A stretch of 64,000 nucleotides of DNA, taken from Isosphaeraceae bacterium EP7. Its GTDB lineage: Bacteria; Planctomycetota; Planctomycetia; Isosphaerales; Isosphaeraceae. A program made the translations under genes and the position numbers. Every line of letters starts with the position of its first letter. Position 1 is the stretch's first letter. Below the pieces are notes generated by a model. That model did not search any database and was not told the DNA's origin. It saw only the letters and a list, made by a program, of their open reading frames with translations. This document shows positions 16,757-23,280 of this stretch, in pieces. The stretch lies in contig CP151667.1 of assembly GCA_038400315.1 (NCBI GenBank), positions 4,103,174 to 4,167,173 on the forward strand, read 5' to 3'.

Positions 16757-19700
16757 ATGGACGACAGATTCGCCGGGACCACCCTTCACGACCTGGGCAC
16801 ACTCTTCCGGTTCGGCACCGCCGCCGGCCTGACGGACGGGCAGCTCCTGGACCGCTTCACGGCTGGGGGAGACGATGCCGAGGCCGCCTTCGAAGGCATC
16901 GTCCACAGACACGGCCCGATGGTCCTGGGCGTCTGCCGCCGGACCCTGGGGCGGGTGCACTCGGCCGAGGATGCGTTCCAGGCGACGTTCCTGGTCCTGG
17001 CGATCCGTGCCCGTTCGATCAGGCGGCGAGAATCCCTGGCCCCCTGGCTCCACGGAGTCGCGTCACGCCTGTCACGCAGGACCAGGGCGATGGCTGGGCG
17101 AAGGACGGACGTTTCCTGCCCATTACCGGAGCCAATCTCGGCCGAGACGACCGGCGACCTGGGCGACCTCCGGCCGGTGCTCGACGAGGAGTTGAGCCGG
17201 CTCCCCGAGAAGTACCGCCGCCCGATCGTCCTCTGCTACCTGGAGGGGATGACCCAGGAGCAGGCGGCCGGCGCCCTGGGCTGGACCAAGGGCACCGTCT
17301 CCGGAAGGCTGGCCCGCGCCAAGGACTTGCTCCGAGGGCGACTCGCCCGCCGTGGGCTGGCCCCTGCGGTTGGCTGGATGGCGTCCGGCAGCAGCCCCGG
17401 TATCGAGGCCGCCGCGATCACCATGCCCGCGACCCTGGTCAACGCGACGACTCGGGCCGCCATCGCGGTCGGACTCGGGCTGGCGGAGTCGACAGCCACC
17501 TCGGGATCGGCCCTGACGCTGGCCCGCGGGGCGATGCGATCGATGCTCGTCGGCCGGCTCAAAGTGGCGGCCGTCGTGCTGATGACGGGAACCCTGGGGG
17601 GAGCCCTGGCGATCGGTTACGCCGGGGCAGAGGGGCGAATTCGGCCCGAGACCGAGGCCCCGCCTGCTGTGAAGCCCGTCGAGGTCGCCCTCAAGTCGGC
17701 CGACCCTTCGCTTCCGCCGGGCGCACGTGTGCGGATGGGCTCCACGTCGCTGAGGCACGAGGGCCACGTGGTACGCTCGGCCTTCTCCCCCGACGGCAAG
17801 ACCCTGGCCTCGGCCGCCTGGGACGGGGCGATCCGGTTCTGGGACCTCAAGACCGGCGAGCCCGCCCCCGGCCTCGATCCGGTCTTTGGGCGGGAGGCGA
17901 CCTATTCGCTCGCCTACTCGCCCGACGGCAAGCTCCTGGCGCTGGGCCGGACCGACGGCACGGTCCAGCTCCGGGATCTCGTCGCGCGGCGTGAGCGGTC
18001 CAGATCCAAGCTGCACAAGGGGCGAGTCACGGGCATGGCCTTCGCCCCCGACGGACTGACCTTCGCCTCTTCGAGCGACGAGGAGACGCTCGTGCGGGTC
18101 TGGGACTCCGCGACCGGGCAGATTCGTGGCACCCTGGATTTCGTCGAGGCGAGCGTCTCTCCCGGTTCCCTTGCGTTCTCGCCCGACGGCAAAAGGCTGG
18201 CTCTAGGGATAAACTCGAAGCAAGGGCTTCCTAGCACGATCCGGATCTGGGATCTCGACCTCGGCGGCAAACCGGTCGTCATCCGCAACGCGCACGGATC
18301 CAACCTGGTCGACCTCGCCTTCTCCAAGGATAGCAAGTCGTTGATCTCCAGCGGGTGCGAGCGTGCGCCCAATGACAAGGACGAACTCGGCCGCAATCAA
18401 AGGGAAATGAACCTCGTGGCGCACCTCGCCCGCTGGGATGTACGCGACGGCCGGAGGCTCTGGGAGATGGAGCCGCCGGGCGCCGGCCTCCTTGGCGGGT
18501 TCGCACTCGCGCAGGACGGCACGACCCTGGTCTCGGCCCATCAGGATCGGCTCCTGGTCTGGGATCTCGCCACGGGTCTCGTCTCCCGGACGATCCCGAT
18601 CGACCCGGCCGATTTCGGCAGCCAGGCCGACACGGTCGCCATCTCGCCCGACGGCCGGGCGATTGCAATGCTCCGCGGCGACAACCGGATCCATCTCCTC
18701 GATTTCGCCACGGGCAAGCCGCTGCTGGTCCGGCCCGAGTCCCACGACGGGCCCATCTATTCCGCCGCGTTCACCCCCGACAGCCGCACCGTCGCGACCT
18801 CGGGCGACGACGGCAAGGTCCGGATCTGGGACGCAGCCAGCGGTGCGTTTCGCCGCGTGATCGTCCCTGCCACTGTCGGCCGTGGCAACGACGTGTGCGC
18901 CTCGCCGGACGGGCGATTCCTGGCGGTTGCCAGCGAGTTTCACCGCGCCCCGGGGTTCGGCGGCTTCGCACGCATTTTCGACCTGTCCGACGGCCGGTTG
19001 ATTCACAGCTTGGAATTCGACAATCGCGCCACCCTCGTCGCCTATTCCGCCGACGGCCGGCGGATGGCCGTCTCGACCTGGAACGCCGAGGCAGAAACCG
19101 GCGTCTTTGGCGACGAACGTGACGGGTTACCCGACAACTCAATCCACCTCATCGAAATCGGCGAGGTGGCGAAGGTGAGCCCGATCAAGCTGCAAGGCCA
19201 CAAGGGCAAGATCCTCACCCTGGCCTTCGCCGCCGACGGCCGATCGCTCGTCACGGTGAGTCAGGACCGGACGTTCCGGTTCTGGGACGCCGAAACCGGC
19301 AAGGAGACGCGGCAGATCGCCTTCCAGCAGGAGCCGGAACCGAACAATGGGCCCGATCAACCCCCCCGCCAGATCACGTCCGCGTCGCTCGCACCCGACC
19401 TGAAATGGGCCGTGACCGGCATATTCGCGGACGATCGGGTCTTCGTCTGGGACCTGACGTCCGGTGAACTCCTCCGCACGGTCCGGGCCGAGAAACATCG
19501 CTCCTGGGCCGTCGCCATCTCCCCCGACGGCAAGCGTTTCAGCACCGTCTCGGACACCGCGGCCGGCCCGAACGCCGGCGACGTCCGCATCCAGATCTGG
19601 GACATGGCCAGCGGCCGCGAGTTGCTGAGCCTGGCAACCGGCGGCAGGCACGTCATCTCGCAGGCCTTCTCGCCCGACGGCCGGTCGCTCGTCACCGGCA

Positions 19701-19759
19701 TGGCGGACACGACGGCGATCGTCTGGAATCTCGACGAGGCTAAGGGCCCTCAGCCATGA
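16757..19759 (+). CDS. ECF sigma factor fused to a membrane helix and WD40 repeats
   Basis: The 1000-residue protein joins three parts. Residues 30-200 are a complete ECF sigma factor: region 2 (VHRHGPMVLGVCRRTLGR, then DAFQATFLVLA) and region 4 (LPEKYRRPIVLCYLEGMTQEQAAGAL, then WTKGTVSGRLARAKDLL). Residues 268-292 form one hydrophobic helix. Residues about 325-1000 hold a run of WD40 units (AFSPDGKTLASAAWDGAIRFWDL and later copies, at least ten). This matches the planctomycete ECF group with C-terminal WD40 extensions (the ECF01-Gob type), thought to tether sigma to the membrane and sense through the propeller. No separate anti-sigma gene is next to it. AGAGGG lies about 10 bases before the ATG. 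The repeats stay in frame throughout. Confidence 0.9.
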   Translation: MDDRFAGTTLHDLGTLFRFGTAAGLTDGQLLDRFTAGGDDAEAAFEGIVHRHGPMVLGVCRRTLGRVHSAEDAFQATFLVLAIRARSIRRRESLAPWLHGVASRLSRRTRAMAGRRTDVSCPLPEPISAETTGDLGDLRPVLDEELSRLPEKYRRPIVLCYLEGMTQEQAAGALGWTKGTVSGRLARAKDLLRGRLARRGLAPAVGWMASGSSPGIEAAAITMPATLVNATTRAAIAVGLGLAESTATSGSALTLARGAMRSMLVGRLKVAAVVLMTGTLGGALAIGYAGAEGRIRPETEAPPAVKPVEVALKSADPSLPPGARVRMGSTSLRHEGHVVRSAFSPDGKTLASAAWDGAIRFWDLKTGEPAPGLDPVFGREATYSLAYSPDGKLLALGRTDGTVQLRDLVARRERSRSKLHKGRVTGMAFAPDGLTFASSSDEETLVRVWDSATGQIRGTLDFVEASVSPGSLAFSPDGKRLALGINSKQGLPSTIRIWDLDLGGKPVVIRNAHGSNLVDLAFSKDSKSLISSGCERAPNDKDELGRNQREMNLVAHLARWDVRDGRRLWEMEPPGAGLLGGFALAQDGTTLVSAHQDRLLVWDLATGLVSRTIPIDPADFGSQADTVAISPDGRAIAMLRGDNRIHLLDFATGKPLLVRPESHDGPIYSAAFTPDSRTVATSGDDGKVRIWDAASGAFRRVIVPATVGRGNDVCASPDGRFLAVASEFHRAPGFGGFARIFDLSDGRLIHSLEFDNRATLVAYSADGRRMAVSTWNAEAETGVFGDERDGLPDNSIHLIEIGEVAKVSPIKLQGHKGKILTLAFAADGRSLVTVSQDRTFRFWDAETGKETRQIAFQQEPEPNNGPDQPPRQITSASLAPDLKWAVTGIFADDRVFVWDLTSGELLRTVRAEKHRSWAVAISPDGKRFSTVSDTAAGPNAGDVRIQIWDMASGRELLSLATGGRHVISQAFSPDGRSLVTGMADTTAIVWNLDEAKGPQP

Positions 19760-20212: not shown

Positions 20213-20653
20213 CCGCCGCGAACCCGCCATCGATCATCCCCCATGCACCGTCGGGTGAAACCGCATGGAGGGTTTCCTATGCGAACCCAAGCCCCGGCGC
20301 AAGCCGTCAGGGTCCGCCAAGCCTACCCATAGGTGCGCGGTCCCTGAGTCCAACCCCCATGCGACGGGCCGGGACGGCATCCGAAATCGGCAGCAACCGA
20401 GGCAAGCGGCCCGGCTCCTCGTTCAACACGCAGCGAGACAGGTGTTCTACGCCGGTAAGCAGAGGTACTTGAGCGAGGATCCGCCTGTTGAGGTGGATGT
20501 CGAGGGGATTCTCATACGGGAGATTTCCGAATTTCGCTTAATCTTGGTGAACGTATTGCATCTCGAACCAAGGTATGTAAAAAAGAATCGGGTGTCCTGA
20601 TATGGCCACTCTGTTTGTTGCCTTACTCTCCCCCCCAATCAGAGAGGTTTCGT

Positions 20654-22513
20654 ATGAGTCGCATGCTGATTCGATCTCTTGTCCTCTCGAGCTTTGTGTG
20701 CGGCAGTGGGGCGATGTACCATGCCGACGCGGCCGACGAGCAGAAGGTAAAAGGCTCGGCCGTCGCGTTCAGCCAGAACAACGAAGTCTTGATCCTGTAC
20801 AAGGAAGGGGAGGCCGAAGCGGCCAAGACGAGCGCCACGGAAGCCGGCTTCGTCGTCGTTGAAGATTACAAGCCCGGCCGCTTCCTTCGATGCACGCCGC
20901 CCAGGCCAGCCCCGGCACCCGGCGGACGGTCCTTCGCCGCCCGCTTGAACAGCATCGCCACCTCCGAGGCGGTCCGGGTCGTCGAGCCCAACTTCGTCGT
21001 GAGCATCCCCCGCCCGCCCGTTGAGCCGGCAGGCGGGGTGGCGGTCGCGTCCGCCAAACGTCGTCAGGGAAGGGCCCGGACCACGTCCACGGCCCCCGAC
21101 GACCCGAAGTTGAGCGAACTCTGGGGCATGACGAACATCAACGCCCCGACCGCGTGGGGCAAGGTCAACGAGTCACCGGCGGTGGTCGTCGCAGTGATCG
21201 ACACGGGCGTCGATTACACGCATGAAGACCTCGCGAAAAACATGTGGAAGAACCCCGGTGAAATCCCCGGGAACGATCTTGATGACGACGGCAATGGCAT
21301 CAAGGACGACGTCCACGGCGCCAAGTTTGCCAACAACGTCGCGTCCGGCGACCCCAAGGACGACAATAGGCACGGCACCCACTGCGCGGGGACGATTGGG
21401 GCCGAAGGCAACAACCACCTGGGGGTTATCGGGGTCACCTGGAAGGTCCAGATCATGGCCCTGAAGTTCCTGGACGCCGACGGCTCCGGCACGACCAATG
21501 ACGCGATCCGTTGCATCGACTACGCGATCGCGCAGAAGAACAAGGGCGTGAACGTGCGGGTCCTGAGCAATAGCTGGGGCGGCGGCGGCGAGTCGCAGGC
21601 CCTGGCCGAGGCGATCACCCGCTCCGAACAGGCGGGCATGTTGTTCGTTGCGGCAGCTGGGAATGAAGGCAAGAACAACGACATTACGCCGAACTTCCCA
21701 TCGAACTATCCAAATCCGAACGTCTTCGCGGTGGCGGCGATCGATATTTCGGAGCAGTTGCCGAACTTCAGCTGCTTCGGGGCAACGATGGTTGACATCG
21801 GTGCGCCCGGCGTGGGCATCCTCAGCTCGATCCCAGGCAACGGGTACGAGAAGCTCACCGGCACCTCGATGGCCACGCCGCACGTCGCCGGGGCCGCGGC
21901 CCTGGCGCTGGCCCACGCCGACCACCAGAGCAAGTCGGGGCTCGAGATCAAGGCGCTCTTGATGCAGAAGGCCCGGCCGATCGGATCACTCTCGGGCAAG
22001 TGCGTCACGGGCGCCACGCTCGACATCGCGTTCCTCGGCTCGACCAACGGCGGCACGCCACCCGTCCCCATCCCCTTCCCCGAGGCGATCGCCTTCCTCG
22101 GTGAACTCTCCGGGCAGGGGGGGGCGTTCGCGCTGAACGGGTCGACCGGCGAGGCCAGGTACACCCTCGGCGGCACCCTCTTCAGCAGCAACCTCGAAGC
22201 CAAGGCCATCGAGACGACCCCCGACGGCTTCGAGGGATGGGTCTATCGGGAAGACTTCCCGACCCAGCCCTTCGACTTCCTGTTCACCCGCGGGACGATC
22301 GGCAACGCCCCCTACCACCGGGTCTACCTCCGCCCAGCCGAGGAAACGGGGGCCCAGTTCTCGTTTTATCTCGACGTCTCGCAGTCCTCGGTCTTCTCGA
22401 CCTCGGCCTCCGCGAGCGGCACCCGCCGGTACGATGTCATCAAGGAAAGGGTGGAGTCCCTGAAGCGTCAGGCCCAGCCGCAGAATAACGCTTCCAGCAG
22501 CCGGGGTCGTTGA
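20654..22513 (+). CDS. Secreted subtilisin-like serine protease (S8)
   Basis: The 619-residue protein has a signal peptide (residues 1-27, ending near ADA-ADE) and an inhibitor-I9-like propeptide at about 38-121 (EVLILYKEGEAEAAK to VVEPNFVVSIP). The peptidase domain at about 150-460 has a complete triad: Asp183 in VIDTGVD, His240 in RHGTHCAGT and Ser405 in GTSMATPH, with the oxyanion Asn337 in AAAGNEG. The C-terminal 140 residues are a beta-rich extension with a Ser/Gln-rich end. AGAGAGG lies before the ATG at 20654; an upstream in-frame ATG would spoil the signal peptide. The next gene encodes a free-standing protein like its own propeptide. A hairpin terminator follows the stop. Confidence 0.93.
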   Translation: MSRMLIRSLVLSSFVCGSGAMYHADAADEQKVKGSAVAFSQNNEVLILYKEGEAEAAKTSATEAGFVVVEDYKPGRFLRCTPPRPAPAPGGRSFAARLNSIATSEAVRVVEPNFVVSIPRPPVEPAGGVAVASAKRRQGRARTTSTAPDDPKLSELWGMTNINAPTAWGKVNESPAVVVAVIDTGVDYTHEDLAKNMWKNPGEIPGNDLDDDGNGIKDDVHGAKFANNVASGDPKDDNRHGTHCAGTIGAEGNNHLGVIGVTWKVQIMALKFLDADGSGTTNDAIRCIDYAIAQKNKGVNVRVLSNSWGGGGESQALAEAITRSEQAGMLFVAAAGNEGKNNDITPNFPSNYPNPNVFAVAAIDISEQLPNFSCFGATMVDIGAPGVGILSSIPGNGYEKLTGTSMATPHVAGAAALALAHADHQSKSGLEIKALLMQKARPIGSLSGKCVTGATLDIAFLGSTNGGTPPVPIPFPEAIAFLGELSGQGGAFALNGSTGEARYTLGGTLFSSNLEAKAIETTPDGFEGWVYREDFPTQPFDFLFTRGTIGNAPYHRVYLRPAEETGAQFSFYLDVSQSSVFSTSASASGTRRYDVIKERVESLKRQAQPQNNASSSRGR

Positions 22514-22534
22514 CCGACGACCCGGCTGCAACCC

Positions 22535-22567
22535 GACGCGAGGCCGTGGTATCCTCGGCCTCGCGTC
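22535..22567 (+). terminator. Intrinsic-type terminator after the subtilase gene
   Basis: A perfect 12-bp stem (GACGCGAGGCCG, 22535-22546, with its complement at 22556-22567), a 9-base loop and then GCTTCTTC. It lies 21 bases after the stop. Confidence 0.7.
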
Positions 22568-22710
22568 GCTTCTTCACCGAGACCCCAATCCGCCGTCCCG
22601 AGGCACGATCAAGGGCCCGCCGATGAGACAGGCCCGACATCGACTCCAAATTCGGGTAAACGTCGTCGGGCGGCCAAGGCCGACTCGACGAGATCTCTCA
22701 GGAGGCTGCA

Positions 22711-23280
22711 ATGAGACGGTCCCTGGTCGTCTGTCTGGCGATCCTTCCTCTTGTCGGGATGCTCCGGCACACTTCCGTCCAGGCGTCTCCGGCCGACCGG
22801 GAATTCATCGAAGTCAAGATCCAAGGAAAGTTGCTCGTCGGCGAGGGAGGGTCGGAAGGCCGCGCCGGTTCGCCCGTGATCACCGCGAATGGGATTTCCT
22901 TCACGCTCGAGTTCAAGAAGGATCCGCCGACGCCGGCCAGGCTGACAACCCTCCACAACCATCGGGTCGTGGTTCGCGGGACCCTGAAGAAGGGCGAGAA
23001 GGATCAACTCATCTGCGTGGTCGAGGGCGACGTGAACGAAGACAAGCCGGCGGGCCCTGTCACCCAATATCTCGTCGGATACCGGGACGGCCAGCAGTCG
23101 ACTCTCGCGGACCTCGGCCAGTCGCTAGGGATGAAGGTGGTGGACCGGAACGTGCCTGGCAAGTTTCTGATCCTCGAAACCACCGACAAGACCGAAGCCG
23201 AGTTCTTCGAGAAATTGAAGAAGGACAAGTCCGTTCGCTTTGTCGAGAAGAACCTGGAATATAAGATTCCCGAAAAATAG
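22711..23280 (+). CDS. Secreted protein with a subtilase-propeptide (inhibitor I9)-like domain
   Basis: The 189-residue product has a signal peptide (residues 1-25, ending near VQA-SPA) and a beta-rich N-terminal domain at about 30-112. The C-terminal domain (about 117-187) reads YLVGYRDGQQSTLADLG, VVDRNVPGKFLILETTD and SVRFVEKNLEYKIP. It lines up with the propeptide of the protease one gene upstream (EVLILYKEG, VVEDYKPGRFL, AVRVVEPNFVVSIP). Propeptide-like proteins without a protease domain are known as subtilisin inhibitors or folding chaperones, so control of the neighbouring protease is likely but inferred. CAGGAGG lies a few bases before the ATG. The terminator between the two genes suggests separate transcription. 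Confidence 0.75.
   Translation: MRRSLVVCLAILPLVGMLRHTSVQASPADREFIEVKIQGKLLVGEGGSEGRAGSPVITANGISFTLEFKKDPPTPARLTTLHNHRVVVRGTLKKGEKDQLICVVEGDVNEDKPAGPVTQYLVGYRDGQQSTLADLGQSLGMKVVDRNVPGKFLILETTDKTEAEFFEKLKKDKSVRFVEKNLEYKIPEK

Follow-up and report, generated by a model that had tools for sequence, protein, structure and literature searches.

The window analysed here is a stretch of 64,000 nucleotides that forms part of contig 1 of a 7.2 Mb genome (G000), whose genes suggest a planctomycete. Two of its genes follow each other on the same strand with a gap of 197 bp, one encoding a secreted subtilase and the other a small protein, referred to below as the partner. The features of the two genes are as follows.

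20654 to 22513, plus strand: secreted S8 subtilase of 619 amino acids (open reading frame; Peptidase_S8 at E 1.6e-56; S8 motifs)
20777 to 21022, plus strand: the subtilase's own I9-like N-terminal propeptide (BLASTP against the partner, hhalign, local I9 HMM)
21179 to 21973, plus strand: S8 catalytic domain (Pfam, residues 176-440)
22040 to 22510, plus strand: C-terminal domain of the subtilase, about 155 residues, without a Pfam match
22534 to 22568, plus strand: hairpin with a 13-bp stem, 20 bases after the protease stop (fold of 22514-22600, z-score -3.56)
22711 to 23280, plus strand: partner protein of 189 amino acids with a signal-like N-terminus (open reading frame; relative in genome G040)
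22711 to 22788, plus strand: Sec-type signal peptide, about residues 1-26, read from the sequence by eye
22795 to 23040, plus strand: N-terminal domain (N-domain), about residues 29-110; rare, and also downstream of same-clade subtilases in genomes G351 and G113
23053 to 23277, plus strand: free-standing I9-like propeptide domain, about residues 115-189 (PF22148; AF2 model; Foldseek)
23242 to 23277, plus strand: putative helix caps (E179, N181) followed by the tail LEYKIPEK, in which Y184 is the P4-equivalent (sequence; analogy to BPN' and SUB1-ProM)

The subtilase frame begins with an ATG at 20654 and its stop codon ends at 22513, and the earlier note had placed both frames correctly; an alternative TTG start at 20615 would give a protein of 632 amino acids. 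A signal-like N-terminus is followed by the propeptide, the S8 domain and the C-terminal domain, and the motifs of the catalytic triad are intact (DTGV, HGTHCAG and GTSMATPH). Pfam does not recognize the propeptide; the local I9 HMM matches it at 1.1e-15, with this same propeptide among the training rows of the model. The C-terminal domain is present in two of the 397 class genomes, and these are the two genomes that contain the gene pair, G000 and G040. The G040 subtilase matches that of the window over almost its full length (residues 14-610, 57%, in the search of 45 family genomes), and among the matches listed from these genomes all of the others stop at residue 515 or earlier.

The G040 protease gene also has a strong stem behind it (z -2.99). 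No stem of such length was seen downstream of the G113 and G351 proteases in a single fold without shuffles, and the terminator scan gave no match at the window hairpin. Possible roles for the hairpin are those of a terminator, an attenuator or an mRNA stabilizer. It may end or damp transcription, so that the two genes would not necessarily share one transcript. Upstream of the pair, at 16757-19759, the window has an open reading frame of 1000 amino acids in which a sigma-factor-like domain and a long WD40-type repeat region can be read by eye.

The partner is a separate gene product; its frame starts behind the stop codon of the subtilase, and it has no S8 domain. Its residues 121-181 belong to PF22148, the Fervidolysin N-terminal prodomain, at E 2.5e-7 and with 31.4 bits, which is above the curated cut-off of 21. 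PF05922 (Inhibitor_I9) matched neither of the two window proteins at E<=1 and nothing genome-wide in G000 at E<=0.001, and so, the partner is not assigned to that family. The earlier note had named a predicted fold unlike I9 as a point that would count against its reading, and the prediction came out I9-like: the AF2 single-sequence model of residues 112-189 has a pLDDT of 78 and the order E-H-E-E-H-E, and rows one to three of the Foldseek list are taken up by two chains of pro-subtilisin E (3whi) and by the BPN' prosegment (3cnq_P), all weak matches at E 2.2e-3 to 8.6e-3. The fourth row is NapD at E 8.6e-3, and other ferredoxin-like folds come straight after the prosegments. The pro-subtilisin E chains and 3cnq_P also top the Foldseek list for a model of the whole partner, which is poor beyond the I9 domain (pLDDT below 50 for residues 1-116). 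By VIA-align Z, the best chain is the unrelated 1vi7 at 8.8, and the best subtilisin prosegment, 3cnq_P, ranks 31st at 7.3. As the ferredoxin-like fold is common and unrelated chains reach a higher Z, the assignment to the I9 family comes mainly from the sequence.

Other searches with the partner returned little. Against the PDB, phmmer gave a single irrelevant row for the partner at E 0.59; with the I9 profile, designed trefoils came out on top through a short G-x-[FY]-L stretch, and the subtilisin prosegments appeared at E 0.23-0.38 only. Two scans of genome contigs and one of viral contigs gave no relative of the partner. For the N-domain, the apparent order of strands and helices, taken alone, suggests an OB-like fold. 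For proteins that carry the N-domain, Pfam gives DUF5818 and DUF4431, both short of the cut-off.

The proposal that the C-terminal half of the partner resembles the propeptide of the upstream subtilase, also made in the earlier note, is borne out by three comparisons. These are the PF22148 match, BLASTP of the subtilase against the partner (24% identity over 76 amino acids, E 0.002 as a single comparison) and hhalign of the two free-standing I9 domains against three subtilase propeptides (probability 94.7, E 6e-8, again as a single comparison). When 37 I9 domains were placed in a tree, those of the window and G040 partners fell together (99/97), and a branch with 98/94 set these two and the four propeptides of the subtilase clade described below apart from the rest; an earlier tree, with 38 rows and no G113, groups the corresponding five rows at 96/90. 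The two I9 trees kept 90 and 89 columns, are unrooted and contain several long branches, about which the program gave warnings. Loci L057, L066, L073, L080 and L084, each cut short, were omitted from both, the weak-match loci L049, L050, L052 and L053 were left unused, and the long-branch rows L081 and L085 were removed for the 37-row tree. With so few columns, no root and long branches meeting, these trees speak for the I9 group as a whole and not for the branching order inside it. The two partner I9 domains are 33% identical, as against 51% for the two paired propeptides. On the simplest reading, the I9 domain would have been copied from a propeptide of this clade and fused to an existing N-domain partner.

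A relative of the partner is present in two of the 45 family genomes, G000 itself and G040, which belongs to another genus, and the idea that I9 partners are common was rejected on this count. The G040 partner is 35% identical (E 1.8e-21), and a two-row profile finds the same two genomes. When the 392 phylum genomes were searched with the partner profile, there were no more full-length relatives, only four partial matches. The G040 partner likewise lies directly downstream of its subtilase, with a gap of 198 bp. Comparing the window with 16 kb around the G040 pair, only WD40-type proteins match beyond the pair genes, and therefore the flanking genes of the two pairs are not shared. Co-occurrence had been put forward as a check on a dedicated pairing of protease and partner, and it speaks for such a pairing: the pair occurs in two genera in the same order and with different flanks.

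Free-standing I9 domains of this type were also sought throughout the phylum. PF22148 was found in 104 of the 392 genomes at E<=0.01, and 91 were over the cut-off. Such a domain usually sits in the same frame as an S8 domain (67 of the 83 I9-bearing frames, at 117 loci), unlike the I9 domain of the window partner, the presence of S8 being scored by phmmer with the window S8 domain at E<=1e-5. Thirteen of the 16 frames without S8 are repeats of the window and G040 partners, and the others are from G389 and G142 and one chance HslV-like match. Among the PF22148 matches listed, eight with frames of 371 amino acids or fewer were inspected, of which those of G000, G389 and G142 are true free-standing I9 proteins. 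G040 adds a fourth that was missed by Pfam, its partner having no Pfam family at E<=1. The protein of G389 has I9 only, behind a signal-like N-terminus, and its gene immediately precedes that of a subtilase which has retained its own propeptide. The I9 domains of these two proteins share about half of their residues and pair with each other at 95/84 in the 38-row tree and 97/97 in the 37-row tree. In G142, the I9 domain stands behind a CarboxypepD_reg-like domain (E 8.5e-5, below the curated cut-off) and has a separate tree position (98/94 with 38 rows, 94/96 with 37 rows); the contig starts 144 bases before the I9 frame, and there is no S8 domain on it. Going by these trees, the phylum would have gained free-standing I9 proteins on at least three occasions.

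The other five of these eight candidates for free-standing I9 proteins were rejected. One in G193 and two in G158 are cut or broken subtilases, and those of G222 (L088) and G075 (L093), which have no S8 domain, were read by eye as HslV. These HslV-like proteins match PF22148 weakly, at E 8.8e-4 and 4.5e-3, which calls for caution with such E-values.

One could suppose that the partner is an unrelated or decaying neighbour, that is, a duplicated piece of propeptide without a present function. The fast divergence of the I9 domains, the rarity of the pair within the family and the possible terminator between the genes would all fit such a history. However, the frame is intact and has a signal-like N-terminus in two genera, beside the same subtilase and with different flanks, and G389 has a parallel pair of I9 protein and subtilase; we regard decay as very unlikely.

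The earlier note described the part of the partner before the I9 domain as an extra N-terminal domain. That it is a separate domain holds good, but it is not a mere extra, as it adjoins subtilases of the same clade, without I9, in G351 and G113. The N-domain occurs on other secreted-looking proteins without I9, which account for three of the four partial matches to the partner profile, and hhalign of the two-row family N-domain profile against four other N-domains gave a probability of 94.8 and E 5e-8. A seven-row N-domain profile was then run against 71 genomes, a hand-made list (45 of the family, 23 of the class and three others), and matched eight of them at E<=0.001, with one gene in each; within the family, the domain is limited to the two pair genomes. 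G351 belongs to another family and has a subtilase with a propeptide that groups with that of the window subtilase; the next gene downstream encodes a protein that has two N-domains but lacks I9. In G113, which is likewise of another family, an N-domain gene without I9 also lies directly downstream of a subtilase, and the protein has one clear copy of the domain and a doubtful second one (iE 0.71). Thus, four of the eight N-domain genes adjoin a subtilase, and around those of G196, G383, G377 and G165 no S8 domain was found within at least 8 kb on either side.

The subtilases of the window, G040, G351 and G113 form one clade (100/98) in a tree built from 47 S8 domains, and each of the four has an N-domain gene downstream of it. 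This adjacency is biased by the way in which the members were found, since the work began with G000 and G040, while G351 was reached by way of its propeptide and G113 by way of the N-domain profile; G113 is the least biased case, being absent from the profile that found it. The tree includes 12 of 30 PF22148 loci, picked by hand, and family subtilase matches without a locus are outside it. The local I9 and N-domain HMMs were trained on the window, G040 and other sequences discussed here, and matches to those sequences arise by construction. As G351 and G113 have the N-domain without I9 next to subtilases of this clade, the partner probably began as an N-domain protein to which I9 was added later. 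The same two genomes imply that the original job of the partner did not need I9.

The place of the N-domain in these genes could be explained if the I9 domain were a mere docking handle that brings a surface-, substrate- or matrix-binding N-domain to the protease, with no lasting inhibition. The N-domain is the element common to the partner genes of all four genomes, it occurs on the I9-less proteins mentioned above, and the faster divergence of the partner I9 domains than of the paired propeptides is in keeping with such a role. Against it, an I9 domain docked over the active site would normally obstruct the cleft, and the N-domain is not known to have a ligand. An adaptor or anchor of this kind seems unlikely to us.

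Our first choice among the readings, and one towards which we lean modestly, is that the partner is a secreted regulator that inhibits the adjacent subtilase reversibly in trans. The domain family, the relation to the propeptide, the pairing and the tree grouping were observed, and from them we infer how the partner might dock and inhibit, where in the cell it would act and what the N-domain might do. According to PMC6993865, propeptides grip their protease by a helix-capping Glu and Asp, with the tail in the active-site groove; the caps are Glu69/Asp71 in BPN' and Glu146/Asn148 in SUB1-ProM, where Val151 is at P4. By analogy, the subtilase would first remove its own propeptide, and the I9 domain of the partner would then dock where that propeptide had sat on the mature catalytic domain. 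Two surface helices of the subtilase would receive E179 and N181 as caps, and the tail would occupy the substrate cleft, Y184 serving as P4, which would give reversible inhibition in trans. The purpose might be self-protection, or restraint of the protease, be it in the periplasm or extracellularly. The N-domain, as the older part to which the duplicated propeptide was presumably fused later, might act as a second contact or a tether.

The G040 partner keeps equivalents of the Glu and the Tyr, and its second cap is Glu, not Asn. The window tail has Pro at the P1-equivalent and two residues beyond it, and it is therefore not a plain cleaved propeptide end. A clear P1 assignment was given up, as three of the four clade propeptides have Pro there too. 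Inhibition by I9-type domains has precedents: the propeptide of pernisine inhibits its own protease in the nanomolar range (PMC10580911), and PMC6993865 lists POIA1, the yeast peptidase B inhibitor and Arabidopsis SPI-1 as subtilase inhibitors, TgMIC5 as a regulator of a subtilase and SUB1-ProM, which is encoded beside subtilase genes, as an inhibitor of SUB1.

The gene order would also suit an external chaperone, or foldase, that aids folding of the subtilase and is later released. In Aeromonas, the ORF2 gene likewise lies directly downstream of the gene for the subtilase ASP, and PMC5638518 places the C-terminus of ORF2 at the catalytic site of ASP and reports inhibition with an IC50 of 84.3 nM. 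However, ASP is called propeptide-deficient (in the title of a reference in PMC5638518), whereas the window subtilase keeps its own propeptide at 20777-21022, which makes a chaperone role less likely, and the lack of I9 in the G351 and G113 partners also stands against it. We judge this role to be distinctly unlikely.

As an inhibitor, the partner would join some known systems. Like POIA1, the yeast peptidase B inhibitor and SPI-1 (MEROPS I9, clan JC), it has a free-standing propeptide fold with its own gene, and as with these, its target is expected to be a subtilase. Those three are eukaryotic and without significant sequence similarity (PMC6993865); the window partner, in contrast, is bacterial, can be aligned with the propeptide of its neighbour and has two domains. 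With SUB1-ProM it has in common that it is an apparently secreted propeptide mimic encoded beside a subtilase, and the Glu/Asn caps and hydrophobic P4 of SUB1-ProM correspond to E179, N181 and Y184. SUB1-ProM and Toxoplasma MIC5 are eukaryotic, however, and inhibition by SUB1-ProM has been demonstrated, whereas for the window partner it is a prediction; unlike either, the window partner has a protease-linked N-domain before I9. The well-characterized stand-alone I9 proteins named in PMC6993865 are eukaryotic and by that account have no significant sequence similarity to propeptides, for which the paper suggests convergent evolution.

The balance is even, in our judgement, for the broader proposal that Planctomycetes have an undescribed subtilase control unit. 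Such a unit would consist of a protease clade with dedicated downstream secreted N-domain partners, onto which a propeptide was grafted in one lineage, in a phylum that acquired propeptide inhibitors of the free-standing kind at least three separate times; it would be a bacterial counterpart of SUB1-ProM whose origin by propeptide duplication can still be read. No description of such a bacterial pair was found in the literature searched, which is weak evidence of novelty, as most subscription journals were outside its coverage. The case would matter because a stand-alone I9 domain from a bacterium can still be placed with the propeptide of the protease encoded next to it, and its fusion to an older domain can be traced through four genomes, and so, the birth of a protease regulator in trans from a propeptide in cis becomes testable. 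It also points to an unrecognized secreted partner of a subtilase clade.

Two minor observations concern the proteins around the N-domain. In G383, G377 and G165 (L038, L039 and L041), the N-domain is part of signal-bearing frames of 240, 397 and 261 amino acids, where it is terminal or internal and stands behind a shared domain with W-x-x-L-W, DF and GPG-GY motifs, which has no Pfam match over the cut-off. The subtilase of G113 has a very Cys/His-rich end of about 40 residues (L114:10499-10618, minus strand), which by its look would bind metal.
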